This document shows positions 32,041-54,206 of a stretch of DNA of 56,089 nt, piece after piece (the first letter of the stretch is position 1; the number at the start of each line of letters is the position of its first letter). Origin of the DNA: Bacteroidales bacterium (lineage in GTDB: Bacteria > Bacteroidota > Bacteroidia > Bacteroidales > UBA932). Position numbers and translations under genes: made by a program. The DNA is taken from positions 1-56,089 of the forward strand of contig JAFPWG010000008.1 of assembly GCA_017395045.1 (NCBI GenBank), given 5' to 3'. Under the pieces are notes generated by a model that was given only the letters and a program-made list of their open reading frames with translations, searched no databases and was not told the origin of the DNA.

Positions 32041-33093
32041 ATGCAGAAAGAGATCGTCATCAGCATCGACGGGAAGGCGGCCGGCCGGGTGGCTGGCGGA
32101 AGCCGTATCGCCGGGATTGCACCGTTGCTTGCGGGAGAGGAGGAGGTGTTCGTCGTCTATGATGCGAACGCGGACTGGGTGGCGGCGGAGGTGATCGCCG
32201 CCGTGCCGGGAGTGCGGGGCAGCATCGCCCTGGAAGCCTCGGAAGCGGGGAAGTCGATGGAAACGGTGCTGCTGATCACCCGTTCGCTGCTGGAAGCCGG
32301 GGCGTCCCGGAAGGCGCTGGTGCTCGCCATCGGCGGAGGAATCACCACCGACCTGGCGGGATTTGCGGCGTCCATCTACAAGCGCGGTGTCCGGTATGCG
32401 AACCTGCCGACGACCCTTCTCGCCCAGGTCGACGCCGCCGTCGGCGGCAAGACAGGCGTGAATCTAGACGATTACAAGAATATGCTGGGCGTCATTGTCC
32501 AGCCGGTGTTCACCTTCATCTGCGCCGAGGTCCTGCGGACCCTCCCGCGTCGGGACTTCCTGTCCGGGGCGGCGGAGATGCTGAAGACCTTCCTCATTGA
32601 GAATCAGGACGATCACTATGACCGGGCGGTCCGCTGGCTCACTGCGGGCGGCTCCGACGCGGAGCGGCAGGAACTCGTTTTCGCCGCCGCCGGCGTGAAG
32701 GCCGGGATCGTCTCGCGCGACCCGTTCGAGGCCGGCGAGCGCCGGAAGCTGAACCTGGGTCATACGTTTGCGCACGCCATCGAGCACGAGGCGCGGCAGC
32801 GCGGGGACGACATCACCCACGGCGAGGCCGTGGCGATGGGCATGGTCCTCGCGGCCCGGCTCGGCGACGCCCTGGGCGTGTCCGCCGGCCTGGAGGCCCG
32901 CCTGACGGCGGACTTCGCCGCCGTCGGCCTGCCCGTCGCGTCGCCGTATCTCCTGGAGACCCTCGCCGAGGCGATGGACAAGGACAAGAAGGCCGAAGGC
33001 GGTCTTGTCCACTTCGTCCTCGCCGAGCGCATCGGCTCGGTCGTCCTCCGCGACCTTCCCGTCGCCGAAGCCATTAACCTGTTGACCCGATGA
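32041..33093 (+). CDS. aroB: 3-dehydroquinate synthase
   Basis: 350 residues from ATG 32041. NAD- and metal-binding motifs are intact: AIGGGITTDLAGFAAS, NLPTTLLAQVDAAVGGKTGVN, LSGAAEMLKTFLI, LNLGHTFAHAIEHE and HGEAVAMGM, which supply the Zn ligands (Glu and two His). It converts DAHP to 3-dehydroquinate, the second step of the shikimate pathway. First gene of the aro-suf operon; the stop overlaps the next start (ATGA). The promoter box nearly touches the start codon, so the transcript may be leaderless. Confidence 0.93.
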   Translation: MQKEIVISIDGKAAGRVAGGSRIAGIAPLLAGEEEVFVVYDANADWVAAEVIAAVPGVRGSIALEASEAGKSMETVLLITRSLLEAGASRKALVLAIGGGITTDLAGFAASIYKRGVRYANLPTTLLAQVDAAVGGKTGVNLDDYKNMLGVIVQPVFTFICAEVLRTLPRRDFLSGAAEMLKTFLIENQDDHYDRAVRWLTAGGSDAERQELVFAAAGVKAGIVSRDPFEAGERRKLNLGHTFAHAIEHEARQRGDDITHGEAVAMGMVLAARLGDALGVSAGLEARLTADFAAVGLPVASPYLLETLAEAMDKDKKAEGGLVHFVLAERIGSVVLRDLPVAEAINLLTR

Positions 33094-35186
33094 TCTGTAC
33101 ATCCATACAAGGCAAGACGCTGGAGGAAATCCTCGCGATCCTGGACAGCGGCGAAGTGGAGATGGCCGAAATCCGGCTGGACCGCTGCGAATTGGACGAG
33201 GAGGAGATCGAGACGCTGTTCTCCGGCTCCGACGTGCCGCTCATTGCGACCTGCCGGATCGCCGAAGCCGCCCTCCGCGTGCAGGGGGAGGAAAACCTCC
33301 TGGCCGACGCCGGCAAAGTCCTTTCGGAAGACGGACTCTACCTCTCCGAACCGCGCCGGAGCCGCAATGCTGCGGAGGAATTTGCTGAGAATCAGCTCTT
33401 GAAAGCCATCGAGGCCGGTGCGAAATATGTGGACCTGGAAATGGAGGCCCCGCCGATGACGGGCCGCAAGATCCGCCAGGCCTGCCAGCAGTACGGGACA
33501 ATGCTCATCCGCTCGTTCCACGATTTCGAGGGCACCCCGCCCGAGGCGACGTTGCTGTCCCTGCTGGAAAAAGGCCGCCGCTTCGGTGGTGACGTGGTCA
33601 AGATCGTGACCACGGCGGGCTCCGATGCCGATGCCGAAACCGTGCTGTCGCTCTACCGCGAGGCGGAGCCGGGCACGCTCGTGGCCTTCTGCATGGGCTC
33701 CGCAGGACGCGCATCGCGTCTGGAGGCCCTCCGCCACGGCGCCCCCTTCACATACGCCTGCCTCTCGCCCGAAGAAGCTACGGCCCCCGGCCAGTGGACC
33801 GCCGCCGAAATGCGTGACGCCGTCTATGGCGGATTCCGCTTCATCGGCTCGAAGGATCTCTCGATGCCGGCGTCGAAAAGCTTCGCGCAGCGGGCGATCG
33901 TGGCCGCCGCGCTGGCCAGCGGCACGTCCCACCTCTCCGGCTATTCGCCCTGCGGGGACAACGAATCGGCCCTCGCGGCGGCCAGGCGGCTGGGCGCCCG
34001 CGTGAAGGCGGACGGCTCCAATTTGGAGATCACGGGCATTGGTGCTTTTGAGAAGTGCCTGTCCATCAATGAGATAAGCACCGGAGAATCCGGCTTCCTC
34101 ACGCGGATGCTCATCCCCGTGCTGTCGGTCGTCGCCGACGGTCCGGTGCGCGTGACGGGTGAGAAGACGCTGCTCAAGCGTCCCCTCGCCGCGGCGCATG
34201 ACATCATGGCTTCGTTCGGCGTTCGGCTGGTGCCGGAAGGCATCGACCCGGCGCGCAAGAACGACTGCTACATCCCCCTGACCGTGAAGGGTCCGCTGGT
34301 GCCCGGCCGGGCCGACGTGTCCGGCAAGGGCGGCTCGCAGCTCATCTCCGGCCTGCTGGCGGCCCTGCCGCTGGCCGGGAGCCGGTCCACGGTGTATGTC
34401 CACGACCCCCGCAGCATCCCCTATCTGTTCATTACCGTGGACGTGCTCCGCAAGTTCGGCATCGAGATCGGCTCGGAGATGGAAGGGAACGAGGATTTCC
34501 TGCAGACGCAGGACTGGACCTTGTGCACGGGCGTGACGTTCAAGATGCGCGGACACCAGCACTACCACGCGGCGGATTTCCGCATCGAAGGCGACTGGTC
34601 CAGCGCGGCGAACTTCCTCGTCGCGGGCGCCATCTTCGGTGAAGTGGAGGTGGAAGGGCTTGATACCCAGTCCCTTCAGGCCGATATCTCCATCATGGAC
34701 ATCCTGATGGACGCCGGGGCGGGCATGTCCCAGCTGGAAGGCGGGACGCCCACGACCGGTCCGCTCCACGTGGCCAGGGCTCCGCTGAACGCCTTCGAAA
34801 CCGACCTGAACAACTGCCCCGACCTCTTCCCGATCGTGGCCGTTCTCGCCGCTTTCTGCCCGGGCGTCAGCCGCATCCGCGGCGTGGAGCGTCTCGCGCA
34901 CAAGGAGACGGACCGTGCCGCCGCCATCGTGGAGATGCTCACGAAGATGGGAGTTCCCGTCCAGGTCGATGAAGACGAAATGACCGTCGAAGGTATGGGC
35001 CTCCCGCAGCGGATCCTGACCGGAAACCTGCTGAAAGGCGGAAAATTCACTTCCCACGCCGACCATCGCATGGTGATGGCCCTCAAAGTCGCATCCCTGG
35101 GCTGCGACGCCCCCGTGGAGATCGACGACACCGCCTGCGTCGCGAAGTCCTTCCCGGGCTTTAATGGTTTATTCGACAGACTATGA
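33090..35186 (+). CDS. aroDA: AroD-AroA fusion: type I 3-dehydroquinate dehydratase plus EPSP synthase
   Basis: 698 residues in one frame. Residues 1-~240 are a type I dehydroquinase: MAEIRLDRCE, IATCR, YVDLEMEA, RSFHDFEGTPP (catalytic His144), DVVKIVTTA (Schiff-base Lys171) and FCMGSAGRASRL. Residues ~253-698 are EPSP synthase: MPASKSFAQRAIVAAAL, TGESGFLTRML, GDWSSAANFLVAGAI, DLFPIVAVLAAFC and LAHKETDRAAAI. The enzymes act at steps 3 and 6 of the shikimate pathway, separated by AroE and AroK, which are not in the window. ATGA overlaps join it to aroB and aroC. No linker longer than ~15 residues is visible. Both halves keep their key residues. Confidence 0.9.
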   Translation: MICTSIQGKTLEEILAILDSGEVEMAEIRLDRCELDEEEIETLFSGSDVPLIATCRIAEAALRVQGEENLLADAGKVLSEDGLYLSEPRRSRNAAEEFAENQLLKAIEAGAKYVDLEMEAPPMTGRKIRQACQQYGTMLIRSFHDFEGTPPEATLLSLLEKGRRFGGDVVKIVTTAGSDADAETVLSLYREAEPGTLVAFCMGSAGRASRLEALRHGAPFTYACLSPEEATAPGQWTAAEMRDAVYGGFRFIGSKDLSMPASKSFAQRAIVAAALASGTSHLSGYSPCGDNESALAAARRLGARVKADGSNLEITGIGAFEKCLSINEISTGESGFLTRMLIPVLSVVADGPVRVTGEKTLLKRPLAAAHDIMASFGVRLVPEGIDPARKNDCYIPLTVKGPLVPGRADVSGKGGSQLISGLLAALPLAGSRSTVYVHDPRSIPYLFITVDVLRKFGIEIGSEMEGNEDFLQTQDWTLCTGVTFKMRGHQHYHAADFRIEGDWSSAANFLVAGAIFGEVEVEGLDTQSLQADISIMDILMDAGAGMSQLEGGTPTTGPLHVARAPLNAFETDLNNCPDLFPIVAVLAAFCPGVSRIRGVERLAHKETDRAAAIVEMLTKMGVPVQVDEDEMTVEGMGLPQRILTGNLLKGGKFTSHADHRMVMALKVASLGCDAPVEIDDTACVAKSFPGFNGLFDRL

Positions 35187-39810: not shown

Positions 39811-41445
39811 ATGCGCTCAAAGGCTAGTGTCTTACTCTCCTTTGCGGTTGTCGCCCTGATGGCGGCCGCCTGCGTCCGGCATGACCAGCTGGACCATTCC
39901 ACCCGCCGGCTGCTGAACGAGCTGGACGGCTACGTAGCAGCCCGGGAGGTGTACGTGGCCCGCAAGCTGGACCAGATGGAAGCCCTCCACAAGCTGTGCC
40001 GTACCACGGAAGACCCGGAACGCCGTTTCGACCTGGAGATGACGATGGCCGGCGAATACTTCGCCTTCAGTTTTGATTCCACGCAGGCCTGCCTGAAGCG
40101 CTGCCAGGAACTGGCCCTGGCTTTGAAGGACCGGGAGCGCCACGACCTCGCCACCATCCAGTTGGGCCACCTGTATGCCAAGGCCGGCAGTTACATGGAG
40201 GCCAACAGCATCCTGTATGGGCAGATTGACACGGCCGCCTTGTCGGAAGATCTTCTGAATGAATATCTTTACTACCTTTACGACTTCAGCAGGGACCTGG
40301 CTGGGAATTCCGGCATGGTGGAGCGGTTGTCCATCCCGCCGGCCGTCTCTTTCCGGAACCGTCTTCTGGCCCGGCTTCCCAAGGACAGTGAAAAATGGCG
40401 CACCCTTCGTCGGGATGAATTGTATGATGAAGGGCGGCTGGCATCGGCCGACAGCCTTGCGCGCATCCTGCTCGCCGGCACCAGTCCGGAGGAGCATGAT
40501 TACGCCATCTATGCCTTCCATCTCTCCGACATCGCGGAGCGGGACGGCCGCCCGGCTGACCGGATCGCCTGGCTCGTCCGTTCGGCGGAGTGCGACCTGA
40601 TCAATGCCGTCCGGGACTACGCATCCCTGACGATGGTGGCCCAGAACATCGTTTCCCAGGATGTGGACCGGTCGTTCCGTTACCTCCGGATCGCCCAGGA
40701 GGACGCCCTGGCCTATAATGCGAAACTGCGTCCGTGGCAGATTTCCCGCTTCCTGATGGAAGTGGAGGACGCCTATACCGCCCGGCAGGCACGGGCCCGC
40801 ACCCTTTCCAGGATTTCCGCGATCCTGCTTGCCATCCTGGTTGCGGCCCTTTCCATCATCACCTGGTTCCTGGTTTCCAAGTCCCGGAAACTCTCCAGGG
40901 TGCGGGAACAGCTGGAGAGCAGCAATGCCAAGCTGGCCCGCGCCAACGAGGAACTCAACGGGCTGAACAAGCAGATTTCCAAGGCCGACAAGATGAAGGA
41001 GGGCTATATCATCGATTTCCTGCAGGGCCTTTCGGAACAGGTCGCCGTACAACGGTCGGAGGATAACCGTTTCCGAAACCTGCTGAAGCAGGGCAAGTCG
41101 GACCAGCTGTTCAAGGAGCTGGCCATCTCCGAACGGTCGGAGCGGACGCGGGAGGAGTTCTATCGCAAGTTCGACGAGACTTTCCTGGGCCTGTACCCCG
41201 ATTTCGTGGAACAGTTCAACGGCCTTCTCCAGGAGGGAGCTCGCATCAATCCGCCGAAGGACAGGCTCACGACGGAGCTACGGATTTTCGCCCTGATCCG
41301 CCTCGGTGTGGACGATTCCAAGAAGATCGCGGCCATGCTGGACTACTCCGTGAGCACCATCTATAACTATAAGGTTGCCGTGAAGAATGCGGCCCTCGGA
41401 GACCGCGACAAGTTCGAAGAGCAGGTGAAAATGATTGGAAAGTAG
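39811..41445 (+). CDS. DUF6377-type PUL regulator with TPR-like sensor and C-terminal HTH
   Basis: 544 residues. A lipoprotein-like signal (VVALMAAAC, Cys ~21) is followed by a helical TPR-like region (~30-320), a transmembrane helix at ~332-352 (ISAILLAILVAALSIITWF) and a coiled coil (~355-400). The conserved C-terminal domain (~400-544) ends in a LuxR-like HTH (MLDYSVSTIYNYKVAVKN). This is the layout of the DUF6377 proteins found next to SusCD pairs. The periplasmic part probably senses oligosaccharides or partner proteins, and the cytoplasmic HTH controls the locus downstream. Encoded directly upstream of susC. Confidence 0.82.
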   Translation: MRSKASVLLSFAVVALMAAACVRHDQLDHSTRRLLNELDGYVAAREVYVARKLDQMEALHKLCRTTEDPERRFDLEMTMAGEYFAFSFDSTQACLKRCQELALALKDRERHDLATIQLGHLYAKAGSYMEANSILYGQIDTAALSEDLLNEYLYYLYDFSRDLAGNSGMVERLSIPPAVSFRNRLLARLPKDSEKWRTLRRDELYDEGRLASADSLARILLAGTSPEEHDYAIYAFHLSDIAERDGRPADRIAWLVRSAECDLINAVRDYASLTMVAQNIVSQDVDRSFRYLRIAQEDALAYNAKLRPWQISRFLMEVEDAYTARQARARTLSRISAILLAILVAALSIITWFLVSKSRKLSRVREQLESSNAKLARANEELNGLNKQISKADKMKEGYIIDFLQGLSEQVAVQRSEDNRFRNLLKQGKSDQLFKELAISERSERTREEFYRKFDETFLGLYPDFVEQFNGLLQEGARINPPKDRLTTELRIFALIRLGVDDSKKIAAMLDYSVSTIYNYKVAVKNAALGDRDKFEEQVKMIGK

Positions 41446-41650: not shown

Positions 41651-41986
41651 ATGAAAAGATTTGCTACTCTAATCCTTGCATTGGGATTGAGCCTGGCTGC
41701 ATTCGCGCAGAACGTTACCGTCAAGGGTATCGTCCTGGACAATGCGCGCCAGCCGATTATCGGCGCTTTTGTCGTTGAGCAGGGAACCAGCAACGGTACC
41801 ATGACCGGCCTGGACGGAGACTTCACGCTCCGCGCGGCTGAGGGCGCCGTCCTGGAAATCTCCTGTATCGGCTATGTGACCCAGACCGTTACGGCCGTTC
41901 CGGACCGCACCCTGGAAATCATCCTCCCCGAGGATGCCGAGATGCTGGAGGAAACCGTCGTCATCGGTTATGGCGTCCAGAAATAA
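41651..41986 (+). CDS. SusC N-terminal part: signal peptide, carboxypeptidase-like domain and TonB box, ending at an in-frame TAA
   Basis: 111 residues. The signal peptide ends AAFAQ (20). Residues ~22-100 are the beta-sandwich N-terminal extension (NVTVKGIVLDNARQPIIGA, SNGTMTGLDGDFTL) usual in SusC proteins, then the TonB-box region EETVVIGYGVQK. The TAA at 41984-41986 stops the frame where the plug normally continues. The next codons (TCC GTG GTG ACG) read on in the same frame, so this is one gene interrupted by a stop, not a frameshift. AAA to TAA is a single-base change; GVQKKS is what an intact gene would have. Confidence 0.75.
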   Translation: MKRFATLILALGLSLAAFAQNVTVKGIVLDNARQPIIGAFVVEQGTSNGTMTGLDGDFTLRAAEGAVLEISCIGYVTQTVTAVPDRTLEIILPEDAEMLEETVVIGYGVQK

Positions 41987-41989
41987 TCC

Positions 41990-44900
41990 GTGGTGACGGC
42001 CGCCATCTCGTCGGTTACTTCCGATGACCTGAAGGTCCAGTCCCAGAACCGTCTGGACAACATGCTCCAGGGCATGACCTCCGGTGTCCAGGTCACCCAG
42101 CATTCCGGTGCCCCGGGCGCCAGCTCCACGGTGATCGTCCGTGGTGTCGGCTCCATCAACCATGCGACTCCGCTGTATATCGTGGACGGCATGCCGGCCG
42201 GCAGCATCGACTACATCAACCCGAACGACATCGAGCGCATCGACGTGCTCAAGGATGCCGCCTCCGCCGCCGTTTACGGCGCCCGTGCGGCCGACGGCGT
42301 GGTCCTGGTGACCACCAAGTCCGGTTCTGAAGGAAAGACCGTCGTGGATTACAACTTCTCCTACGGTTTCCAGAACCCCTGGCGCAAGCCCGCCGTGCTC
42401 AATGCTACGGAATATGCCATCATGATGAACGAGGGCATGCTCAACGCCGGCAACGCTCCCATCTATGACGATCCCTATTCCCTCGGAAAGGGAACCGACT
42501 GGGTGGACGCCGTTTTCGACAAGAACGCCCCCATCGTCAAGCACGACGTCAACGTTTCCGGTGGAAACAGCCGTGTAAACTACAGCGTTTCGGGTGGCTA
42601 TCTCACCACGAAGGGTACGATCGGCGGACGGTTCGACCAGTCCTACTATGACAGGATGACGATGCGCGAGAATATCGGCATCACCCTGTTTGACGAGACG
42701 GCTTCCCGCAGCTGGCTGAACAAGATGACCATCGGAAACCAGGTTTCCTTCGCGCACATCAAGTCGGCCGGCATCTCGGCCAACTCCGAATACGGTTCCC
42801 CGCTGGGCTCCGCCCTGGGCATGTCCCCGCTGGATCCCATCTATGCCGATGCCGCCGAAGAGGCCCGCTACCAGTCCCTCTATCCGGCCGGTTATCCTTA
42901 TATTATCCGTAACAGCGAGGGCGTTGCATACTTCATCGCCGACGGCGGTACCTACAACGAGCAGGCCAACCCGATCGCCATGCTGGACCGTCCGCACGGC
43001 TACAGCAGCACCGACAAGATCGTGGGCAGCCTGAACGCCGAGCTCCAGCTGCTCAACGGCCTGAAGCTCCGCAGCGCCGTCACCATGGACCTTTCTTATG
43101 TTTACGGTCACAGCTATACCAAGCAGTATTTTCTGACCTCCAAGAGCTACAGCCTGGATTCGGTCACTGAAACCAAGGTGTATGACAAGACCGGGAAAGA
43201 ATCCACCGTCGAGAAGATCAACTACGGTTCCTCCGCTTCCCAGAGCATGAACCGCTACTACAGCTATCAGGTGGAAAACACCCTGACGTATGACAAGGTG
43301 TTCGGCAAGCACACGCTGAACGCGGTGCTGGGCCAGTCGGCCTACATGTCTAATTCTTCCTATCTGGGCGCTTCCTCCATGGGCCTGCAGTATCCGGATG
43401 ACCCCTGGAAGATCAGCGTGGACAATACCCTCGGCCAGCAGAAGGACGGCGACCGCAACGGTTGGGGCCGCTGGAACTCCATCCCTTACAGCATCCTCTC
43501 CTACTTCGGCCGCGTTTCCTATAACTATGACGAGCGCTTCCTCGCTCAGGCGACGATCCGCCGGGATGCTTCCTCGCACTTCGGTCCCAACAACAAGTGG
43601 GGTACCTTCCCGTCCGCATCCCTCGGATGGAACCTCAAGAATGAGGAGTTCCTGAAATACAATACCGTCATCTCCATGGCCAAGCTCCGCGCTTCCTGGG
43701 GTATCAACGGTAAGGACAACCTGAGCGACTTCCTGTATGCCGTGTACGCGCAGTCCGGCAACAACTATGTCTTCGGTTCCGGCGCCAACGCTACCGAGAG
43801 CATCAAGATCGGTGTGAAGGCTTCCGGTCTGGCGAACCCGAACGCCAAGTGGGAGCAGTCCATCCAGACTGACTTCGGTGTGGATTTGGGCCTCTGGGGC
43901 AATAAGTTCACCGCCACCGTCGACTACTATATCAAGGACGCCTCCGGCATGCTGATGGAAATGCAGGTGCCTACCTATGCGGGCGACTCCGCGCCGACCG
44001 GCAACGTGGGTACGATGCGCAACTACGGTGTCGAGTTCGACCTCGGCTGGCGCAGTGCCATCGGCGATTTCAACTACGGCATCAAGGCTAACGCCTCCTA
44101 CAACCGCAACAAGCTCACCAGACTGGCCGACGACGCTTCCTACATCATTACCTCCAGCCACAAGATCGGTTCCCTCACCCGTGGCGAAGTGGGTGAAGTG
44201 TTCCCTTACTTCTGGGGCTGGAAGACCGACGGCGTGTTCCAGAACTGGGATGAGATCAACGCTTATGTGAACGAAGAAGGCAATCTGATCCAGCCCAACG
44301 CCCAGCCCGGCGACTTCCGCTGGGTGGATGTCAACCCCGACGGCGTCATCAACGACGACGACCGGACCAAGATCGGCAAGGGTATTCCTGACTGGACCTT
44401 CGGCCTCACGCTCACCATGGATTGGAAGGGCTTCGACTTCAGCATGCTCCTCCAGGGCCAGTATGGCGTCCAGGCGCTCAACGTCACCCGCCGTACCGAC
44501 CTGTATTACATCAACCTTCCGAAGACCATCCTCAACCGCTGGACCGGCGAAGGTTCCACCAACAAGTATCCCCGTTTCGCCTTTGATTCGGCCAACGAGA
44601 ATTACCGCGTCTCCGACTACTGGATGGAGGACGCCTCGTTCCTGCGCGCCCGCAACATCCAGCTGGGCTACACCCTGCCTGCCAACCTCACCCGGAAGGC
44701 CTTCATCTCCCGCATGAGGGTGTTCGGACAGGTCGAAAACGCCTTTACGCTCACCAAGTACTCCGGTTGCGATCCGGAAGTTTCCAGCGGATTCCGGGAA
44801 GTGGGCGTGGACCGCGGTGTCTATCCCCAGAACCGGACCGTCACCTTCGGTGTGAACGTGACCTTCGGCGGCGGCCATCGCAGCGCCATTACTCCTACCC

Positions 44901-45349
44901 CTGTTGACCAGTACGTTCCCGCCCAGGTCGTCGAAAGGGTTGTCGAAAAGATTATCGAGAAACCCGTGGAAGTGGTGAAGGAAGTGGTCAAGGAGGTCGT
45001 CAAGGAAGTCCCTGCGAGCACGCTCGACGGCGCTTACAACGACGACATCTACTTCCTGATCGGCAAGGCCGAAATCCGTCCTGACGAGGCCTTCAAGCTG
45101 GGCCGCATCGCCCAGATCATGGCCGAGAATCCGGATGCCACGATCACGATCACCGGTCACGCCGATTCCGGCACCGGTACCGCCGAGATCAACAAGGAAC
45201 TGTCCGCGCAGCGCGCCGCCACCGTGGCGGAGATGCTCAGGAAGGCCGGCATTGCCGCCAACCGCATTTCCTTCTCTTCCACCGGCACCGATGCGGATCC
45301 TTCCGCTACTCCTGAAAGCAACCGTGTTGCCATCTGCATCGTCAAATAA
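41990..45349 (+). CDS. SusC-like TonB-dependent transporter body with C-terminal OmpA domain
   Basis: 1119 codons open from GTG 41990, same frame as 41651. Plug domain ~1-115 (LDNMLQGMTSGVQV, SINHATPLYIVDGMPAG, AASAAVYGARAADGVVLV), then a 22-strand beta-barrel ending RTVTFGVNVTF near 44870, where SusC proteins normally stop. It continues with a Pro/Val linker, a repeat of VVEKxxEKP/VVKEV units (~44920-45010), and an OmpA-type peptidoglycan-binding domain (IYFLIGKAEIRPDE to the end). SusC imports glycan oligomers across the outer membrane with SusD as lid. Reinitiation at GTG or stop readthrough would be needed for the plug to be made with the TonB box. Confidence 0.88.
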   Translation: MVTAAISSVTSDDLKVQSQNRLDNMLQGMTSGVQVTQHSGAPGASSTVIVRGVGSINHATPLYIVDGMPAGSIDYINPNDIERIDVLKDAASAAVYGARAADGVVLVTTKSGSEGKTVVDYNFSYGFQNPWRKPAVLNATEYAIMMNEGMLNAGNAPIYDDPYSLGKGTDWVDAVFDKNAPIVKHDVNVSGGNSRVNYSVSGGYLTTKGTIGGRFDQSYYDRMTMRENIGITLFDETASRSWLNKMTIGNQVSFAHIKSAGISANSEYGSPLGSALGMSPLDPIYADAAEEARYQSLYPAGYPYIIRNSEGVAYFIADGGTYNEQANPIAMLDRPHGYSSTDKIVGSLNAELQLLNGLKLRSAVTMDLSYVYGHSYTKQYFLTSKSYSLDSVTETKVYDKTGKESTVEKINYGSSASQSMNRYYSYQVENTLTYDKVFGKHTLNAVLGQSAYMSNSSYLGASSMGLQYPDDPWKISVDNTLGQQKDGDRNGWGRWNSIPYSILSYFGRVSYNYDERFLAQATIRRDASSHFGPNNKWGTFPSASLGWNLKNEEFLKYNTVISMAKLRASWGINGKDNLSDFLYAVYAQSGNNYVFGSGANATESIKIGVKASGLANPNAKWEQSIQTDFGVDLGLWGNKFTATVDYYIKDASGMLMEMQVPTYAGDSAPTGNVGTMRNYGVEFDLGWRSAIGDFNYGIKANASYNRNKLTRLADDASYIITSSHKIGSLTRGEVGEVFPYFWGWKTDGVFQNWDEINAYVNEEGNLIQPNAQPGDFRWVDVNPDGVINDDDRTKIGKGIPDWTFGLTLTMDWKGFDFSMLLQGQYGVQALNVTRRTDLYYINLPKTILNRWTGEGSTNKYPRFAFDSANENYRVSDYWMEDASFLRARNIQLGYTLPANLTRKAFISRMRVFGQVENAFTLTKYSGCDPEVSSGFREVGVDRGVYPQNRTVTFGVNVTFGGGHRSAITPTPVDQYVPAQVVERVVEKIIEKPVEVVKEVVKEVVKEVPASTLDGAYNDDIYFLIGKAEIRPDEAFKLGRIAQIMAENPDATITITGHADSGTGTAEINKELSAQRAATVAEMLRKAGIAANRISFSSTGTDADPSATPESNRVAICIVK
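44881..45349 (+). other. Linker and OmpA-like peptidoglycan-binding domain fused to SusC
   Basis: Linker: about 45 residues, Pro-rich first, then repeated VVEK/VVKE units likely to form a charged helix or extended spacer. Domain, ~105 residues: DDIYFLIGKAEIRPDEAFKL, ATITITGHADSGTGT, INKELSAQRAATVAEML and GIAANRISFSSTGTD. The Asp of GHADS and the Arg of SAQRAATV match the two residues of OmpA that hold meso-diaminopimelate. The domain is complete and ends at the gene's stop. Confidence 0.85.
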
Positions 45350-45367: not shown

Positions 45368-46879
45368 ATGAAAAAGATAGTTTTTGCACTCAGTGCCCTT
45401 GCCGTCCTGCTGACTGCCTGCTCCAAGGATTTCATCAATCCCCGGCACAACAGTTCAGAACCGCTTGACGAGTACTTCAATACACCGGAGCGTCTGTTCC
45501 AGTGCCTGGTGGCTGCCTACGACCCGCTGGAGTGGTACGACTATGCCTTCGGCCAGTACGACAACCTCCACCTCATCTTCGACGTGATGGGTGACGACGT
45601 GTATGCCGGCGGCTCCAACGAGGGCGATCAGCCCATCATCGTGAAGACGCACTACTACACGGCGACTTCCACCGACCTGCCCAACCAGATGTGGACCGTC
45701 AACTATTCCGGCATCAACCGCGCCGCGACCCTCATCAAGTATGTGGAGGGAGCCGAGGGCGTGGACGAGACCACCAAGAAACTCTATGTGGCTGAAGCCA
45801 AGGTCCTCATGGCCTACTACTACAACATGCTCTGGAAGCTCTGGGGCAACGTCCCTTACTGGGAGGAACTCCTGGAGTCCCCGTACATCGCCCCGCAGCT
45901 GGGCCACGACGAGGTCTATGCCAACTTCATCAAGCTCCTCGAGGATGCGATCGCCATGAACGTCCTTCCGATGAAGGCGAGCGTCGGCGACGAAGGCCGC
46001 GTGACCAAGGCCATGGCCTACATGCTGTACACCGAGGCCGTCCTGTACCAGAACGACCAGTCCCGCTACCAGACCGCCCTGAACTACATGAAGGAGATCA
46101 TCTCCAGCGGCCAGTATTCCCTCGTTGCCGACTTCGCCGGCATCTGGGAAGAGAGCGGCGAATGGGGTCCCGAGTCCATCTGGGAGATCAACTACATCTC
46201 CGAAGGCGGTATCCGTGACTGGGACAACTCCATCGCTACCGGCGGACAGGTGAACTCCATCCTCACCGGTATCCCCGCCCCGAAGAACGTGCCCGACTAT
46301 CATGAGGGCTGGGGCTTCGGCACCATCGCCAAGAGCGCATATGACATGTACGACGACGACGACATCCGCAAGGACGGCGGCATCCTGAACTTCGCGAAAT
46401 ACGCGGAGGAGCACCCCGGTGCGGAATACACCCCGCGCTGGCAGGATACCGGCTTCTGGAACCGCAAATACATCGCCCGCGAAGGCGGCAACCACGGTTA
46501 CAAGGCTTCCGACAACGTGAACTACTGCAACAACGAACGCATCTACCGCTACGCCGAGACCCTCCTGAACGCCGCCGAGCTTTCCGTCCTTCTGGGACAG
46601 GATGGCAGCAGCTACCTCAAGCAGGTCCGCGACCGCGCCCACTGCCACGATACCGGCACCACCCGCGAAGACATCATCCAGGAACGCCACAAGGAGTTCG
46701 TGGGCGAAGGAAAGCGCTATTGGGACCTGGTCCGTTCCGGTCTGGCTTCTTCCGTCCTCAAGGCTTCCAACCACGAGTGGCGCCAGAACGACTGGACCGA
46801 GAACAAGAAGTACTGGCCCATCCCCCAGGGCGAGATCGACAAGGATCCGAGTATCCAGCAGAACAATTACAACAATTAA
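45368..46879 (+). CDS. SusD/RagB-family glycan-binding lipoprotein
   Basis: 503 residues. Signal ending LLTAC (Cys ~18), then the SusD domain: MWTVNYSGINRAATLIKYV, AKVLMAYYYNMLWKLWGNVP (helical TPR-like scaffold) and the C-terminal ERHKEFVGEGKRYWDLVRSG followed by YWPIPQGEIDKDPSIQQN, both RagB/SusD signatures. It sits on the cell surface, forms the lid of the SusC channel and captures oligosaccharides. It follows susC by 18 nt. No sign of truncation. Confidence 0.93.
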   Translation: MKKIVFALSALAVLLTACSKDFINPRHNSSEPLDEYFNTPERLFQCLVAAYDPLEWYDYAFGQYDNLHLIFDVMGDDVYAGGSNEGDQPIIVKTHYYTATSTDLPNQMWTVNYSGINRAATLIKYVEGAEGVDETTKKLYVAEAKVLMAYYYNMLWKLWGNVPYWEELLESPYIAPQLGHDEVYANFIKLLEDAIAMNVLPMKASVGDEGRVTKAMAYMLYTEAVLYQNDQSRYQTALNYMKEIISSGQYSLVADFAGIWEESGEWGPESIWEINYISEGGIRDWDNSIATGGQVNSILTGIPAPKNVPDYHEGWGFGTIAKSAYDMYDDDDIRKDGGILNFAKYAEEHPGAEYTPRWQDTGFWNRKYIAREGGNHGYKASDNVNYCNNERIYRYAETLLNAAELSVLLGQDGSSYLKQVRDRAHCHDTGTTREDIIQERHKEFVGEGKRYWDLVRSGLASSVLKASNHEWRQNDWTENKKYWPIPQGEIDKDPSIQQNNYNN

Positions 46880-46891
46880 TCCCGGGCAATC

Positions 46892-49363
46892 ATGAAAACA
46901 ATCTGGCAATATATCGCTATCGCTGCGCTGGCTGTTTCCGCTGCCGCCTGTACTCCTGAGTATCCGGTTCCCAACCAGGCAGGCCTCCCGCAGGCTTCCG
47001 ACCTGGACGTGACCATCACGGTGGACCAGACCACCAACTACGTCACCTTCTTGATGAACAACAAGGGAGTGGTTCCCGTGTGGATTTTCGGCGACCAGAA
47101 GATCGACGGAAAGGCCGGCAAGAAGTACTCCTATACCGACAACAACGTCTCCCTCCGCTTCCGTGACGCGGGTGAATACACCGTGGAAGTGAAGGCCTAC
47201 AACGCCAACGGCATTTCCCAGGGTTCCCTGGTGAAGACCTTCACCCTGGACAACACCTACCGCGATCCGTTCGATCCGGCTCCTTATGTCAAGGCCATCT
47301 CCAACGGCGCTTCCCAGACCTGGATCTGGAACAGCGCCGAGGCCGGGCACATCTCCTGCGGCCCTGTCGGGGACCCGAAGGGTTGGTGGCAGGTCGAGCC
47401 CAACGGCAAGAAGGACTTCCTGTATGACGACCTGATGACCTTCGACTCCGAAGGTAACTACACCTACAATCCGGTCGACGGCCAGGCCTATGCCAAGAAG
47501 GACGCCGAGTATCCTGCGGGACACGCGATCCTGGACGACGACTACCTCTTCCCGGCCGAGAAGAAGACCTCGAAGTTCACCTTCGAGAACAACTGGAACG
47601 ACGCCGGCATCGAGGAGATCTTCCTCGTGCTGGAACCGGGCAGCATCCTCTCTTATGTCGTGCACAAGTCCCTCGTGGACGAGCCGCGCTACCAGATCCT
47701 GGAGACCAAGACCAGCGCCATGAAGAAGAAGCTTCAGTTCATGGCGACCGCTTCGACCCCGACCAATAAGGACGGTATCTCTTTCTATTACGAGTTCGTT
47801 CCCGAAGGTTCCATCGCAGGTGCCGACGACCCGCTCTTCGGCAAGGAGAGCAAGGCCTGGATCCTGGACAATGAGACCAAGGGTTACATGGGTTGCGGCG
47901 GCAGCATCGGCAATCCGCTCGAGTGGTGGAACGCCAACCCGCACGAGAAGGATGACTATGGCGTGAAGGACGATGTCCTGACCTTCTTCAAGGACGGCAA
48001 GTACGTGTTCGATCCGGGTGCCGACGGCATGGTCTACTGCAACTGGGAGTCCGACTATCACCACGAGCTGTGGGATGGCGGCCAGAACAGCGACTACGAC
48101 GCCCCCGCCGAGGTCCAGACCTCGACCTACACCCTGGGTTCCGACGCCGATGGCGACTACATCGAACTTCCGGCCGGCATCTTCTTCAGCTATGTGGCCA
48201 ACAAGGCTGTCCTGAGCGAACCCACCCGCCTGTACATCACCGAACTGACGGAGGCGAAGATGGTGCTCGTGGCCAAGTTCAACGGCATCTGCTGGCAGTT
48301 CATCTTCAAGCCCCGTGACGGCGTGCCCGCCCAGGAGGATCCGCTGTTCGGCATCACCAGCAAGACGTGGGTCTATGACAACGACGCCCAGGGTTATCTG
48401 GGCTGCGGCGGCAGCATCGGCAATCCGACCGAGTGGTGGAACGGCGCTCCGCACGACAAGGACGCTTACGGCGTGAAGGATGACGAACTTACGTTCTTTG
48501 CCGATGGCAAATACACCTTCAATCCCGGTGAAGACGGCATGGTTTACTGCAACTGGGAGTCCAACTATCACCACGAGCTGTGGGATGGTGTCCAGAACAG
48601 CGACTATGACGCTCCCGCCGATCCGCAGGAGGCGACTTATACGCTGGACAGCGACGACGACGGCGACTACATCGAACTCCCGGCCGGCATCTTCTTCGGC
48701 TATGTGCCGAACAAGGCCGTCCTGGATACGCCCACGAAGCTGTATATCAAGGAGAACACCAAGGACAGGCTGGTCCTGGTGGCCAAGTTCGACGGCATCT
48801 GCTGGCAGATGATCTTCCGTCCCAAGGAAGGCCAGGGCGGTGGCGGCGAACCCGCCTCGCTGGAGGAAGCCCTTGTCGGCTCCTGGACCTGGGATGCGGA
48901 CCAGAACGGCCACTTCGGCTGCGGCCCTGATCTGGGCAATCCCCTGGGGTGGTGGAGTGGCGAGGCCCATTGCAAGGACAACGCCCACATGTACGACGAC
49001 GTCATCACCTTCACGGCCGACGGCAAGTACACCCTGGACCCGGTGGACGGTTTCTCCTACATGAACAAGGATGTGACTTTCCTGAACGACCGCAAGGGCG
49101 ATTCTCCCTATGGTGACGATTTCCTCTTCACGAACGAGAAGACGACCTGGAGTTTCACCCTCGACGAAGAGAATGACCTCGACGTGATCAAGCTCGCCGA
49201 CGGCGGTCTCTTTACCTACATCCCCAACAACGCCTTTGAGGATGAGCCCTGGCTCTATGTCAAGTCCTGTTCGGCGGACCAGCTTGTTCTCATGACCTAC
49301 ACGGCGACCGGGAACAACGGTGGCTCCATCGCCTGGCAGTACATTCTCAAGCGCGTCAAGTAA
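46892..49363 (+). CDS. SusE-like surface lipoprotein with four repeated ~165-residue domains
   Basis: 823 residues. Lipobox SAAAC (Cys ~20), then an Ig/PKD-like domain (~35-125). Four repeated units follow, each with a W-W/GxxGCG/GNPxxWW start, a D-x-LTF-x-DGKYT strand and a beta-rich end. Units 2 (from ~47826) and 3 (from ~48337) are nearly identical; units 1 and 4 resemble each other more than 2 and 3 (NPVDG/DPVDG forms). The position after susD suggests a surface glycan-binding protein that presents the polysaccharide to GH16. I do not recognise the repeat family. Confidence 0.82.
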   Translation: MKTIWQYIAIAALAVSAAACTPEYPVPNQAGLPQASDLDVTITVDQTTNYVTFLMNNKGVVPVWIFGDQKIDGKAGKKYSYTDNNVSLRFRDAGEYTVEVKAYNANGISQGSLVKTFTLDNTYRDPFDPAPYVKAISNGASQTWIWNSAEAGHISCGPVGDPKGWWQVEPNGKKDFLYDDLMTFDSEGNYTYNPVDGQAYAKKDAEYPAGHAILDDDYLFPAEKKTSKFTFENNWNDAGIEEIFLVLEPGSILSYVVHKSLVDEPRYQILETKTSAMKKKLQFMATASTPTNKDGISFYYEFVPEGSIAGADDPLFGKESKAWILDNETKGYMGCGGSIGNPLEWWNANPHEKDDYGVKDDVLTFFKDGKYVFDPGADGMVYCNWESDYHHELWDGGQNSDYDAPAEVQTSTYTLGSDADGDYIELPAGIFFSYVANKAVLSEPTRLYITELTEAKMVLVAKFNGICWQFIFKPRDGVPAQEDPLFGITSKTWVYDNDAQGYLGCGGSIGNPTEWWNGAPHDKDAYGVKDDELTFFADGKYTFNPGEDGMVYCNWESNYHHELWDGVQNSDYDAPADPQEATYTLDSDDDGDYIELPAGIFFGYVPNKAVLDTPTKLYIKENTKDRLVLVAKFDGICWQMIFRPKEGQGGGGEPASLEEALVGSWTWDADQNGHFGCGPDLGNPLGWWSGEAHCKDNAHMYDDVITFTADGKYTLDPVDGFSYMNKDVTFLNDRKGDSPYGDDFLFTNEKTTWSFTLDEENDLDVIKLADGGLFTYIPNNAFEDEPWLYVKSCSADQLVLMTYTATGNNGGSIAWQYILKRVK
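47826..48834 (+). repeat. Internal tandem duplication in the SusE-like gene
   Basis: 47826-48320 and 48337-48834 encode domains that agree over most of ~165 residues (GMVYCNWES and YHHELWDG occur in both), with long stretches of identical DNA. This indicates a fairly recent duplication. Confidence 0.8.
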
Positions 49364-50487
49364 TGCATCTGCGGCTAGAAATCAAAGGGTTGCTGCTGCT
49401 TTGTGCGGCAACCCTTTTCAACTTTTCCTGCGGATGCGGGACGGAGCCGGTTCCTTCGCCCTCGGACGCTACGCTGACGGTCAGTCCCTCCAGCGTGGAT
49501 GCCGATTATGAGGCACAGACGGTGATCCTGACCGTTACCGCCACCGGGGACTGGGGTGTATCGGCCGCTGACAAGGACTGGTGCACCGTGACCCCTTCGG
49601 GCGGAATCAAGGGCACGTCGGAAGTCAAGGTCGCCCTCGCGACCAACCGGACCGGGAAGGAGCGCGCGAACACCATCCTGTTCCGCTACGGGTCCAAGAC
49701 GCTGGAAGTACCTGTGAAACAGGGTTTCAGCGAGGAAGACCTGCCGCCGGATCCGGGTGAGATCGTGGTCCCCGAGGGCTATTCGCTGAACTGGCACGAG
49801 GAGTTCGAGGATGACGGCGTTCCCTCGCTCGACGACTGGTGGTATGAGACCGGCGGCGGTGGCTGGGGAAACAACGAAGACCAGGTCTATGTGGCCGGTT
49901 CCCAGAATGGCGAGAAACTGGCCTTCATCTCCGACGGCTCCCTGAAGATCCAGGCGAAGAAGATCGGCGGCACCGTCTATTCCATCCGGATGAACACCAA
50001 GCGTTCCTGGACCTACGGCTGGTTCGAAGCGCGCCTCAAGGTGTCCGATGTCCCGGGCAGCTGGCCCGCATTCTGGATGATGCCGCAGAACTTCAAGACC
50101 TGGCCCGGAGACGGCGAGATCGACATCATGGAATATGCCATCTCCACCCAGGGGAAGAACAAGTCGTCCTCCAGCATCCACTGCAACGCCTACAACTGGC
50201 CGAACGGGACGCAGAAAACGCACGTCCAGCCGGTCTCCAATGCGGCGTCCGAGTTCCATGTGTACGCACTCGAATGGACGTCGTCCGAGATGAAGTTTTA
50301 CATCGACGGGAAACAGCACCTGGTCTTCCGGAACGAAGGGAAGGGGTACAACTCCTGGCCTTTCGACGCCCCCTTCTACCTCAAGTTCAACATGGCCTGG
50401 GGCGGAAACATGGGCGGCACGACCAGCGAAGCGATGCTTCCCGCCACCTACGAAATCGATTACGTCCGCGTATTCACCAAGAAATAG
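49363..50487 (+). CDS. GH16 endo-beta-1,3(4)-glucanase (laminarinase) with BACON domain
   Basis: 374 residues. Signal with lipobox-like FNFSC (Cys ~23), a BACON-type beta domain (~36-122, with DKDWCTVTPSGG), a Pro linker, then a GH16 jelly roll (~140-374). The catalytic motif GEIDIMEY gives Glu252, Asp254 and Glu257 (ExDxxE form), as in laminarinases; SWPAFWMMP is the substrate-side strand. Predicted to cut beta-1,3-glucan at the cell surface. The start overlaps the preceding stop by one base (TAATG). Confidence 0.92.
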   Translation: MHLRLEIKGLLLLCAATLFNFSCGCGTEPVPSPSDATLTVSPSSVDADYEAQTVILTVTATGDWGVSAADKDWCTVTPSGGIKGTSEVKVALATNRTGKERANTILFRYGSKTLEVPVKQGFSEEDLPPDPGEIVVPEGYSLNWHEEFEDDGVPSLDDWWYETGGGGWGNNEDQVYVAGSQNGEKLAFISDGSLKIQAKKIGGTVYSIRMNTKRSWTYGWFEARLKVSDVPGSWPAFWMMPQNFKTWPGDGEIDIMEYAISTQGKNKSSSSIHCNAYNWPNGTQKTHVQPVSNAASEFHVYALEWTSSEMKFYIDGKQHLVFRNEGKGYNSWPFDAPFYLKFNMAWGGNMGGTTSEAMLPATYEIDYVRVFTKK

Positions 50488-50490
50488 GAA

Positions 50491-52737
50491 ATGAAACAGA
50501 TCCGTACCCTTTGCCTGGCGGCCGGCCTCCTGCTGGCGGTATCCTGCCGGGGACCGAAGACCGACAGCACCATCGGAGCCTCCTCCGATACGGAACGCCG
50601 CGTGGAGAGCCTGCTCTCCCGGATGACCCTGGCCGAGAAGATCGGCCAGATGAACCAGGTGTCCGCCGGCGGTGACGTGTCCAACTATGCCGACGCGCTG
50701 CGCAAAGGGCAGATCGGCTCCATCCTGAACGAGGTGGATCCGGCGAAAATCAACGAGTACCAGCGCATCTGCCTGGAAGAGTCACGGCTGGGCATCCCCC
50801 TGCTGGTGGCCCGGGACGTGATCCACGGTTTCCATACCGTTTTCCCGATCCCGCTGGGCCTCGCGGCCACCTTCGATCCCGACCTTGTCGAGGAGGGAGC
50901 GCGGACCGCCGCCCTGGAAGCGACGGCGCAGGGCGTCCGCTGGACGTTCTCGCCGATGCTGGACATCGCCCGTGACCCGCGCTGGGGCCGCATCGCCGAA
51001 GGCAGTGGAGAGGATACATACCTGGACGCCCGGATGGCCGAAGCCATGGTGTACGGCTATCAGGGCCGGCAGGCGGATTCCACGTCCATGGCGGCCTGCA
51101 TCAAGCATTTCGTCGGTTACGGCGCCGCGGAAGGCGGCCGTGACTACAACAGCACCTTCCTGACCGAGCGGCAGCTCCGGAACGTGTATCTGCCTCCGTT
51201 CGAGGCTGCCGTGAAGGCCGGGGCCCTGACGCTGATGACTTCCTTCAACGACAACGACGGCGTGCCGTCCACCGGCAACACCTTCGTGGTGAAGGACGTC
51301 CTCCGCGGGGAATGGGGTTTCGACGGCCTGGTGGTCACTGACTGGAATTCGATGGGAGAGATGATCGCGCACGGGTTCGGCACGGACCGCAAGGACGTGG
51401 CCCGGAAGGCCCTGGAGGCGGGCGTGGACATGGACATGATGACCTATGGTTTCCTGTCGCACCTGGAGGAGTTGGTCAAGACCGGCGCCGTGAAGGAATC
51501 GGCCATCGACGATGCCGTCCGGAACATCCTGCGGGTAAAGGTCCTGCTGGGACTCTTCGAGCATCCGTACGTGGATGTGGAGAAGGGGGTCGCGGTGCAG
51601 TATGCGCCGGAGCACCTGGCCGCCGCGCAGCGGTCTGCCGAGGAGTCCGTCATCCTGCTCAAGAACGACGGCGTACTGCCCCTGAAGGCCGCTACCGTCC
51701 GCTCGATCCTGGTGACCGGTCCCATGGCCGACGCTCCGCACGACCAGCTGGGTACCTGGGCCTTCGACGGTGACAAGGGCCACACGGTCACGCCCCTGAA
51801 GGCGCTTCGGGAGCGCTTCCCGGGCAAGGTAACCTTTGTTCCCGGCCTGCGCTACAGCCGCGAGAAGCGGAATGCCTTTCAGGATGTGGTCGCCGCCGCC
51901 CGCCGCGCTGACGTGGTGCTGGTGTTCCTGGGCGAGGAGGCCATCCTTTCCGGAGAGGCACATTCACTGGCCGATCTGAACCTGAAAGGCTCGCAGAGCG
52001 AACTGCTCGCAGCCCTGAAGGCCACCGGGAAGCCGGTCGTAGCCACGGTGATGGCCGGACGGCCGCTGACCGTCGAACGTGACCTCCCGAACTGCAATGC
52101 CCTGCTTTATGCCTTCCATCCCGGAACGATGGGCGGCCCGGCGCTGGCAAACCTCCTTTTCGGCGACGTGAATCCTTCCGGAAAGACGCCCGTCACCTTC
52201 CTGCGCACGGTGGGCCAGGCTCCGCTTTATTACAGCCATAACATGACCGGACGCCCCTATAACGGGGAAACCCTCATCGACGACATCGGGATGGAAGCCG
52301 GCCAGACCTCGCTGGGCAATACGTCCTACTATCTGGACTATGGCGCCTATCCGCTGTTCCCGTTTGGCTATGGCCTGAGTTACACGCAGTTCGCCTATTC
52401 CGGCATCGTCCTGGACAAGGCCGTTTACGGAAAGGACGACGAGATCAAGGTCTCGTTGACCCTCTCCAATACCGGTAACTGCGACGGTACGGAAGTGGTG
52501 CAGGTGTATGTCCGCGACCTGGTGGGTTCGGTCACCCGCCCGGTGAAGGAACTGAAGTCCTTCGAGCGGGTGTCCCTGAAAGCCGGCGAAAGCCGGGACC
52601 TGGAGATCCGGATTCCGGTGTCCGAACTAGCCTTCTACGGCCTGGACGGCGTGAAGAAAGTGGAGCCCGGTGATTTCCAGCTCTGGGTGGCCGGCGACAG
52701 TGCTTCCGGCGATCCGGTTCCTTTTACGGTTCAATAA
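50491..52737 (+). CDS. GH3 beta-glucosidase (BglX type)
   Basis: 748 residues. Lipobox LLAVSC (Cys ~19). The (beta/alpha)8 domain has LARDVIHGFHTVFPIPLG-type sequence, KHFVGYGAAEGGRDYN and nucleophile Asp284 in VVTDWNSMG. The alpha/beta sandwich has LGEEAILSGEAHS with the probable acid/base Glu, and a C-terminal FnIII-like domain ends YGLSYTQFAYSG...GDFQLWV. It removes glucose from oligosaccharide ends, most likely the products of GH16 and GH30 in the periplasm or at the surface. It follows GH16 by 3 nt. Confidence 0.93.
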   Translation: MKQIRTLCLAAGLLLAVSCRGPKTDSTIGASSDTERRVESLLSRMTLAEKIGQMNQVSAGGDVSNYADALRKGQIGSILNEVDPAKINEYQRICLEESRLGIPLLVARDVIHGFHTVFPIPLGLAATFDPDLVEEGARTAALEATAQGVRWTFSPMLDIARDPRWGRIAEGSGEDTYLDARMAEAMVYGYQGRQADSTSMAACIKHFVGYGAAEGGRDYNSTFLTERQLRNVYLPPFEAAVKAGALTLMTSFNDNDGVPSTGNTFVVKDVLRGEWGFDGLVVTDWNSMGEMIAHGFGTDRKDVARKALEAGVDMDMMTYGFLSHLEELVKTGAVKESAIDDAVRNILRVKVLLGLFEHPYVDVEKGVAVQYAPEHLAAAQRSAEESVILLKNDGVLPLKAATVRSILVTGPMADAPHDQLGTWAFDGDKGHTVTPLKALRERFPGKVTFVPGLRYSREKRNAFQDVVAAARRADVVLVFLGEEAILSGEAHSLADLNLKGSQSELLAALKATGKPVVATVMAGRPLTVERDLPNCNALLYAFHPGTMGGPALANLLFGDVNPSGKTPVTFLRTVGQAPLYYSHNMTGRPYNGETLIDDIGMEAGQTSLGNTSYYLDYGAYPLFPFGYGLSYTQFAYSGIVLDKAVYGKDDEIKVSLTLSNTGNCDGTEVVQVYVRDLVGSVTRPVKELKSFERVSLKAGESRDLEIRIPVSELAFYGLDGVKKVEPGDFQLWVAGDSASGDPVPFTVQ

Positions 52738-52751
52738 AACAGACCAATCCG

Positions 52752-54206
52752 ATGAAGATGTTTCCGCTGATCCTTACCGCAGCCTTGCTGCTGGGTTGCA
52801 ACCAGAAGCCGGAGGAGAATCCGGAGCCTCCGGTGCCGTCCGACGGTCCCGTCGCCGCCGTATATACCACTTCTGTGGCCGGGAAACGCTTCGAGGAGAG
52901 CACGGTTTTCCTCGGAAAGCCGGAAGACGTGCATTTCTACAAGGTAGAGCGCAGCGGCGAGACGTTCCAGTCGGTGGACGGGTTCGGCCTGGCCATCACT
53001 CAGGCCAGTTGCTACAACCTGCTGCTGATGCCCGCCGAAGACCGTATCGCCTTCCTGACGGAACTGTTCAGCCGAGAGAAGGGCATGGGGTCGTCCCTGA
53101 TCCGCGTGTGCATAGGCGGTTCCGATTTCTCCCTGGACGAATTCACCTGGTGCGACGAGCCCGGGATGGAGAACTTCGCCGTCCATCCCCTGGACGAGGA
53201 GTGGCTGTTTCCGGTCCTGGACGAGATCTTCCGGATCAATCCGGACGTCAAGATCATCGGCTCGCCCTGGAGCTGTCCCAGATGGATGAAGATCTCCGAG
53301 AGCGGGGGATTCTATGACGCCTGGAAGGGCGGTTGCCTGAGCCCGGCGCATTATCAGGATTATGCCGACTATTTCGTGCGCTGGATCCGCGAGATGGAAA
53401 GTCGCGGGTATCCCATTTACGCCGTCACCCTGCAGAACGAGCCGTTGAACCCGGGAAACTCCATGTCGCTGTACATGTCCTGGGAAGACCAGCGGGATTT
53501 CATCAAGCAGGCGGTGGGCCCGGCCTTCCGCGCGGCGGGAATCCATACGAAGATCCTGCTCTTCGACCACAATTACGATTACGACGACATCTCTTCGCAG
53601 CGGGATTATCCGCTGCACATCCTGGAGGATGCCGAGGCCGCTCAGTACGTGGCAGGCAGCGCCTGGCATAACTACGGCGGCCATGTCTCCACGCTGGACA
53701 AAGTCCACAGCGCTTTTCCCGACAAGGACATCTATTTCACGGAAGCCTCCATCGGCACGTGGAACTATTCCTTCGACGGCTGCCTGATCAACGACTTCCG
53801 GGATATCTTCCTGGGGACGCTGGGCCGTTACGGAAAGGGGGTCACCCTTTGGAACCTGATGCTGGACGACCAGCGGAAACCTTACCGCCCCGGCGGGTGC
53901 TCCACCTGCTTCGGCGCTGTGACCCTGTCCACGTCCGACCACAAGTCCATCATCCGTAACAGCCACTATTACAATGTGGCACACTGCTCCAAGGTGCTGC
54001 AGCCGGGCGCTGTCCGGCTGGGAACCAAGGGTTATGAGACCGCAGGCCTTACCTACCAGTGGTATCGGAATCCGGACGGTTCCCAGGCGCTGCTTCTCCT
54101 GAACGAGGGTTCCTCCGACACGATGGTGAACTTCGTCTCGGACAAGTATTCGCTCGCTTGTAGGGTACCCGCCAAGGCCATCCAGTCTATCCGCTGGAAA
54201 GAATAG
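52752..54206 (+). CDS. GH30 glucanase (beta-1,6-glucanase/glucosylceramidase-like)
   Basis: 484 residues. Lipobox LLLGC (Cys ~16). The barrel shows QSVDGFGLAITQAS, SPWSCPRWMK, acid/base Glu230 in VTLQNEP and nucleophile Glu331 in YFTEASIG; a C-terminal beta sandwich follows. This is the GH30 subfamily that includes beta-1,6-glucanases. With GH16 and GH3 it points to a branched beta-1,3/1,6-glucan such as laminarin or a fungal glucan. Encoded 14 nt after the GH3 gene. Confidence 0.9.
   Translation: MKMFPLILTAALLLGCNQKPEENPEPPVPSDGPVAAVYTTSVAGKRFEESTVFLGKPEDVHFYKVERSGETFQSVDGFGLAITQASCYNLLLMPAEDRIAFLTELFSREKGMGSSLIRVCIGGSDFSLDEFTWCDEPGMENFAVHPLDEEWLFPVLDEIFRINPDVKIIGSPWSCPRWMKISESGGFYDAWKGGCLSPAHYQDYADYFVRWIREMESRGYPIYAVTLQNEPLNPGNSMSLYMSWEDQRDFIKQAVGPAFRAAGIHTKILLFDHNYDYDDISSQRDYPLHILEDAEAAQYVAGSAWHNYGGHVSTLDKVHSAFPDKDIYFTEASIGTWNYSFDGCLINDFRDIFLGTLGRYGKGVTLWNLMLDDQRKPYRPGGCSTCFGAVTLSTSDHKSIIRNSHYYNVAHCSKVLQPGAVRLGTKGYETAGLTYQWYRNPDGSQALLLLNEGSSDTMVNFVSDKYSLACRVPAKAIQSIRWKE

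Follow-up and report, generated by a model that had tools for sequence, protein, structure and literature searches.

The stretch analysed here, called the window, is 56,089 nucleotides long and is one whole contig (C10; JAFPWG010000008.1 of assembly GCA_017395045.1) of a Bacteroidales genome of 2.67 Mb that is 96% complete. A forward-strand frame at 41651-45349 begins with a signal-like start and continues through a CarboxypepD_reg domain, a plug and a complete SusC barrel to a linker and an OmpA domain, with one TAA inside. It is probably the gene of a TonB-dependent glycan importer that carries a peptidoglycan-anchoring tail. Its parts are as follows.

41651..41983, forward strand: N-terminal SusC piece with the signal-like start and the CarboxypepD_reg domain (PF13715, E 2.5e-15; sequence).
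41984..41986, forward strand: in-frame TAA stop, Lys in relatives (sequence, comparison with relatives).
41987..44866, forward strand: plug and complete SusC barrel (TIGR04056 to 981/981, PF07715, TIGR04057), with the modelled last strand at residues 948-960 counted from 41990.
44867..45037, forward strand: linker of 57 residues with a GG start, few Pro and VVEK/VVKE repeats, predicted to be disordered (sequence, model).
45038..45346, forward strand: OmpA-like domain (PF00691).
45164..45166, forward strand: Asp codon (D1059) of the putative diaminopimelate pocket, invariant in the alignment.
45212..45214, forward strand: Arg codon (R1075) of the putative diaminopimelate pocket, invariant in the alignment.

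Profile searches revealed that the first part of the gene is a SusC. The SusC/RagA profile TIGR04056 matches 41717-44866 with 869.9 bits against a cut-off of 368.25 and covers model positions 2-981 of 981, with one stop inside the match. The SusC/RagA signature TIGR04057 scores 59.3 bits (cut-off 46.2). CarboxypepD_reg_2 lies before the stop, and the plug PF07715 (70.9 bits) lies after it. The best structural matches of the modelled chain are SusC chains, such as 8aa4. The barrel ends in the residues TFGVNVTF, with the terminal Phe at 44866. The gene then runs on through the linker into the OmpA domain, which PF00691 matches at 45050-45310 with 57.9 bits against a gathering score of 27.2 and which shows the fold of known peptidoglycan-binding OmpA domains. 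The SusC barrel, the VVEK/VVKE repeats after it and the fusion to an OmpA domain, all proposed in a sequence-only reading of this DNA, were thus confirmed.

The same reading had treated 41651-45349 as an open frame and overlooked the TAA at 41984-41986. The stop stands in the context VQK*SVVTA and separates the signal-like start and the CarboxypepD domain from the rest. The two closest fused relatives (L034 and L035, which share 1,040 and 1,058 of 1,234 aligned columns with the window protein) and an unfused orthologue (L177) have Lys in its place. It may be a real nonsense mutation or a sequence error. No frameshift accompanies it, and the barrel, compared with those of the two fused relatives, has a ratio of nonsynonymous to synonymous substitution rates (dN/dS) of 0.10-0.14, so that the stop, if real, is recent. 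The gene may yield no protein in this strain.

The fusion is not restricted to the window. The source genome has 24 SusCs above the TIGR04056 cut-off and 11 PF00691 matches, five of which are on SusC proteins. The other four fused genes are free of stops within the stretches that match SusC or OmpA, and in L012, one of the four, no ATG precedes residue 180 of the open frame. Named genomes were scanned and yielded 289 relatives of the tail, of which the best 80 loci were analysed. Their record titles name Bacteroidales or Bacteroidia, and 66 of the 80 carry a ruminant host, a gut site or a RUG/RUI label (we take RUG to mean rumen genome). Tail and SusC lie within one open reading frame (ORF) of at least 600 amino acids in 75 loci, and SusC sequence stands directly upstream of the tail in the remaining five, four of which are cut by contig ends and one of which is broken. 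In 78 of the 80 loci a possible ORF start lies -52 to +31 bases from the tail stop, the other two being at contig ends. All 78 downstream ORFs have an invariant Cys close to their start, and SusD families match 56, 55, 48 and 19 of them in overlapping sets. Furthermore, twelve genomes chosen for having fusions contain 3 to 9 OmpA matches each in ORFs of 930-1410 amino acids, counted without an ORF-by-ORF check of SusC identity. Two fused genes, L047 and L089, seem to have a broken SusC part away from contig ends, so that the window copy is not alone in having a stop or frameshift. In another locus (L015, 2979-11298), a susC without a tail, a 615-amino-acid ORF and a susC with an OmpA tail follow each other, and the second SusC has no CarboxypepD domain.

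The putative pocket is conserved along with the domain. Its Asp and Arg are invariant across a 35-row alignment of fused proteins, and each is kept in 79 of the 80 tails. This agrees with the proposal that the OmpA domain is complete and has both residues for diaminopimelate, and it contradicts the alternative, raised with that proposal, that the binding pocket is missing. A SusC with a divergent OmpA tail, L033 (942-4793), has no pocket Asp and possibly represents a degenerate anchor. In three pairs of three sequences, dN/dS is 0.12-0.19 for the OmpA part, 0.10-0.14 for the barrel and 0.23-0.30 for the linker. The value for the OmpA part indicates that the tail is under purifying selection.

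We also found that the tail can be present or absent on nearly the same importer. Among proteins with their end present, SusC ends fall into two classes, with at most 1 residue past the barrel model or with 151-193 extra residues; the exception, L086, is a fragment cut inside the barrel with 12 residues. In the set used for the barrel tree, the barrel ends on Phe in 77 of 84 fused proteins (before the tail) and in 42 of 46 unfused ones. The 30 orthologues that match the window gene best comprise 27 that end exactly at the last Phe of the barrel and three, the window gene included, that are tailed. The closest unfused orthologue is 94% identical over the 489 residues tested. Trees of the 20 best of these 30 orthologues rejected a clade of the three fused members in the approximately unbiased (AU) test, with p values of 1.6e-4 for barrel protein, 6e-23 for barrel DNA and 1.6e-4 for susD DNA. 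The tail is thus a module open to exchange, carried by some SusC-SusD pairs and missing from others that are otherwise their orthologues. Sixteen unfused orthologues reach at least 85% identity, and 14 of them have a near-identical stop and spacer, CAGAC.ACGGA.ATG, which favours an unfused ancestor. Loss of the tail through recombination with unfused alleles is a possible alternative. The tails of the three fused members group together in the tail tree (support 93), which would also fit a single gain and later exchange or losses.

The history of the tail differs from that of the barrels. The barrel tree was made with FastTree, which gave long-branch warnings, from 130 of 163 SusC rows (84 fused) after removal of same-gene repeats, fragments and loci of other taxa; its sampling is non-random, as it consists of the best tail matches and the best SusC matches of four genomes. 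On this tree the fused label needs 18 changes, 14 of which are forced by well-supported branches. The tail tree combines 73 tails with 42 free-standing OmpA domains from the genus, without one short row and near-identical rows (at least 93%), and has few columns and many unresolved forks. In it, 68 tails form one supported clade (97) with no sampled free-standing OmpA inside, and the other five (L012, the L025/L027/L030 group and L033) lie elsewhere, which gives 4 label changes, 2 of them forced. The L012 tail groups with free-standing OmpAs that have Ala linkers (95), and L025/L027/L030 are a separate group (99). These placements do not favour one common origin of the tails, although only two changes are forced and the tree is poorly resolved. 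One ancestral fusion inherited vertically is not favoured either, given the 18 changes against 4 and the low-identity barrels with similar tails. Where barrels are less than 25% identical (1466 of 3081 pairs), the OmpA domains are on average 65% identical, compared with 72% where barrels are 60-80% identical; this comparison and the one within genomes exclude the five tails of other types.

DNA comparison of paralogues delimits the shared tract. The OmpA parts of eight pairs are 76-93% identical and their linkers 59-68%, whereas identity drops to 45-55% over the final 300 bases of the barrel and to 47-51% where susD begins. Two orthologue control pairs are similar throughout, the linker excepted. 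As the eight pairs were selected for similar tails on dissimilar barrels, the ten pairs illustrate the tract and give no rate. The simplest account would be recombination whose bounds lie within the repetitive linker and close to the stop codon. Tails of the same genome are slightly more alike than others (69.1 vs 66.5 identity, 58 pairs), a value reached in 6 of 2000 label shuffles. As for the source, VVEK/VVKE linkers directly follow the last strand in some of the genus's free-standing OmpA porins and others have Ala-rich linkers like the L012 tail, and this resemblance points to OmpA-type porins. Tails may have been taken from such porins at least twice, perhaps four times, and one tail type would then have passed by recombination into many SusC genes that are not related to each other. 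Anchoring could in this way come and go with the importer itself unaltered.

The spread over taxa was sampled with a profile (A3) that spans the barrel end, the linker and OmpA. Matches at E <= 1e-70 were present in 44 of 400 sampled genomes of the genus, and in 17 of the 150 of good quality, with at least 102 matches overall (at most 4 scored per genome). Among the matches listed for 249 genomes of the family, the full-span ones are in the window genome and in three genomes of another genus. In the samples of the order (393 genomes, E <= 1e-70) and the phylum (395 genomes), the only full-span match was in the window's own genome, and thus none lay outside the family; 12 further genomes of the phylum sample matched at E <= 1e-60 in the barrel part only. 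Generic PF00691 was also searched in 31 genomes (29 from outside the family), and among the matches listed the five longest OmpA ORFs of other genomes were VWA, PD40 or TSP3 proteins. SusCs with other types of OmpA tail may exist elsewhere.

The domains, the fold, the pocket residues, the purifying selection, the recurrence, the module-limited recombination-like tracts and the orthologues with and without a tail are all computed, and from them we infer wall binding, its mechanical or positional effect and its benefit. With a probability of roughly 0.7, the gene encodes a TonB-dependent glycan importer of SusC type whose tail is exchangeable and anchors it to peptidoglycan, the tail having been taken from OmpA-type porins and spread by recombination. 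The tail joins right after the last aromatic residue of the barrel, which would place it on the periplasmic side on a flexible VVEK/VVKE linker, where the OmpA domain would clasp diaminopimelate of the wall through its Asp/Arg pair. The most likely role of the tail would be to tether the SusCD complex to peptidoglycan. Of the sequence-only reading, the fusion, the intact pocket residues and a likely wall anchor are supported; its two suggested benefits, resistance to TonB pulling and a fixed place for the PUL complex, would be possible consequences. The importer might be held against TonB pulling, be kept near the wall-bound Ton motor or escape loss in vesicles. As to the Ton motor, ExbD binds peptidoglycan according to a review in which the word OmpA does not occur (PMC11658791). 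We lean, somewhat beyond even odds, towards a wider proposal in which linker and OmpA domain form a mobile wall-anchor cassette. This unit would recombine between unrelated SusCs, inserted between the terminal Phe and the stop codon, and lineages could switch single glycan importers between free and wall-anchored states. Anchoring would then be a selectable and reversible trait in Bacteroidales of the ruminant gut.

Several points weigh against an anchored importer of this kind. The window copy is interrupted by the in-frame stop. Only five of the 24 SusCs above cut-off in the source genome bear the tail, and within the genus a match at E <= 1e-70 is missing from 356 of 400 genomes; the tail is thus absent from most SusCs, and importers work without it. 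L033, although fused, has lost the pocket Asp. OmpA-type folds can serve other roles, and a common fold is no proof of function. The trees do not separate gain from loss, and the support of the tail tree is thin.

Other benefits or histories of the tail should be considered. The tail might keep SusC on the cell when outer-membrane vesicles bud, instead of bearing TonB force, which is the same anchor with a different benefit. One report describes vesicles of B. thetaiotaomicron and B. fragilis as preferentially enriched in surface proteins (PMC13088901). The tail would act on position whatever the substrate and is present on very different SusCs, consistent with this explanation. Nothing in the present data tells vesicle retention from force bearing, however, and we regard retention as the main benefit as rather improbable. 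To a similar degree, it is doubtful that the fused SusCs are mainly extra links between outer membrane and wall, that is, abundant barrels used as OmpA does with transport unaffected. In favour of such links, E. coli OmpA connects the lattice of outer-membrane proteins with the wall (PMC11648852), and OmpM is both tether and channel (PMC10628300). One genome has up to 9 long OmpA ORFs. The source genome, however, still has the free-standing OmpA porins L002, L009 and L010, so that the job of tether is not vacant. Moreover, the tails are on single SusC-SusD operons of many kinds; such operons are probably substrate-induced, which would make fused SusCs poor constant tethers. It is quite unlikely that the module is a neutral passenger, spreading by recombination as a selfish or accidental C-terminal addition that importers tolerate. 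The patchy presence and the module-limited tracts are in line with such a passenger, but the dN/dS of its OmpA part is close to that of the barrel, Asp and Arg are kept almost throughout, and the barrel end and the downstream SusD are preserved. Finally, an assembly artefact that joined a SusC gene to a separate OmpA gene, which the stop in the window copy could have hinted at, is ruled out by the same junction in many independent assemblies and by the five SusC-OmpA proteins of the source genome.

The fused gene lies in a glycan locus, whose further members on the forward strand are as follows.

39811..41445, forward strand: DUF6377 protein upstream, possibly a regulator of the locus (PF19904, E 5.2e-66; role inferred).
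45368..46879, forward strand: SusD partner lipoprotein (PF07980, E 8.8e-26).
49363..54206, forward strand: glycoside hydrolases of the locus, namely GH16 with BACON (49363-50487), GH3 (50491-52737) and GH30 (52752-54206), from profile matches.

The set of SusC, SusD, GH16, GH3 and GH30 suggests a beta-glucan as substrate. Between SusD and the glycoside hydrolases, 46892-49363 encodes an 823-amino-acid protein with no more than weak PKD/MG3 matches, perhaps a surface glycan-binding protein, and a CotH kinase-like protein (54215-55861) closes the locus near the contig end. Elsewhere in the window, a 698-amino-acid ORF (33090-35186) joins two shikimate-pathway steps in a single protein, with a type I dehydroquinase domain ahead of an EPSP synthase domain.

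How a beta-barrel transporter is held while TonB pulls its plug is, to our knowledge, an open question, as is the need of importers for a fixed place with respect to the wall-bound Ton motor. The orthologues described here are natural matched importers, about 90% identical, with and without an apparent wall anchor, and such pairs could be used for testing anchoring. If the proposal is true, TonB-dependent transporters join the known kinds of outer-membrane tether, and a C-terminal domain is shown to move as a unit between paralogues. A search of the open-access literature for a TonB-dependent importer with an OmpA tail found no precedent among the papers listed. Both parts belong to known families; what surprises more is the tail's movement from one importer to another.

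The window protein shares the CarboxypepD domain, the plug, the barrel and the downstream SusD with SusC/RagA proteins of TIGR04056, and SusC structures are its best matches, but it continues 160 residues past the terminal aromatic strand into an OmpA domain. In OmpA-type porins, linkers of the same kinds and an OmpA domain likewise follow the last barrel strand without a gap, whereas their barrel is the small OmpA barrel and the one here is, by profile and fold, that of a TonB-dependent SusC. The mark of OmpM is a wall-binding SLH domain and, unlike in OmpM, no SLH family is among the Pfam matches of the window protein. OmpM of diderm Firmicutes, reportedly absent from Gracilicutes, would be alike in joining an outer-membrane channel and a tether in one chain, if our interpretation is right (PMC10628300). 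Pal and other OmpA-like peptidoglycan-binding proteins share the fold and the Asp/Arg positions with the tail; in them the domain is on a lipoprotein or a small porin, whereas here it is on a transporter.
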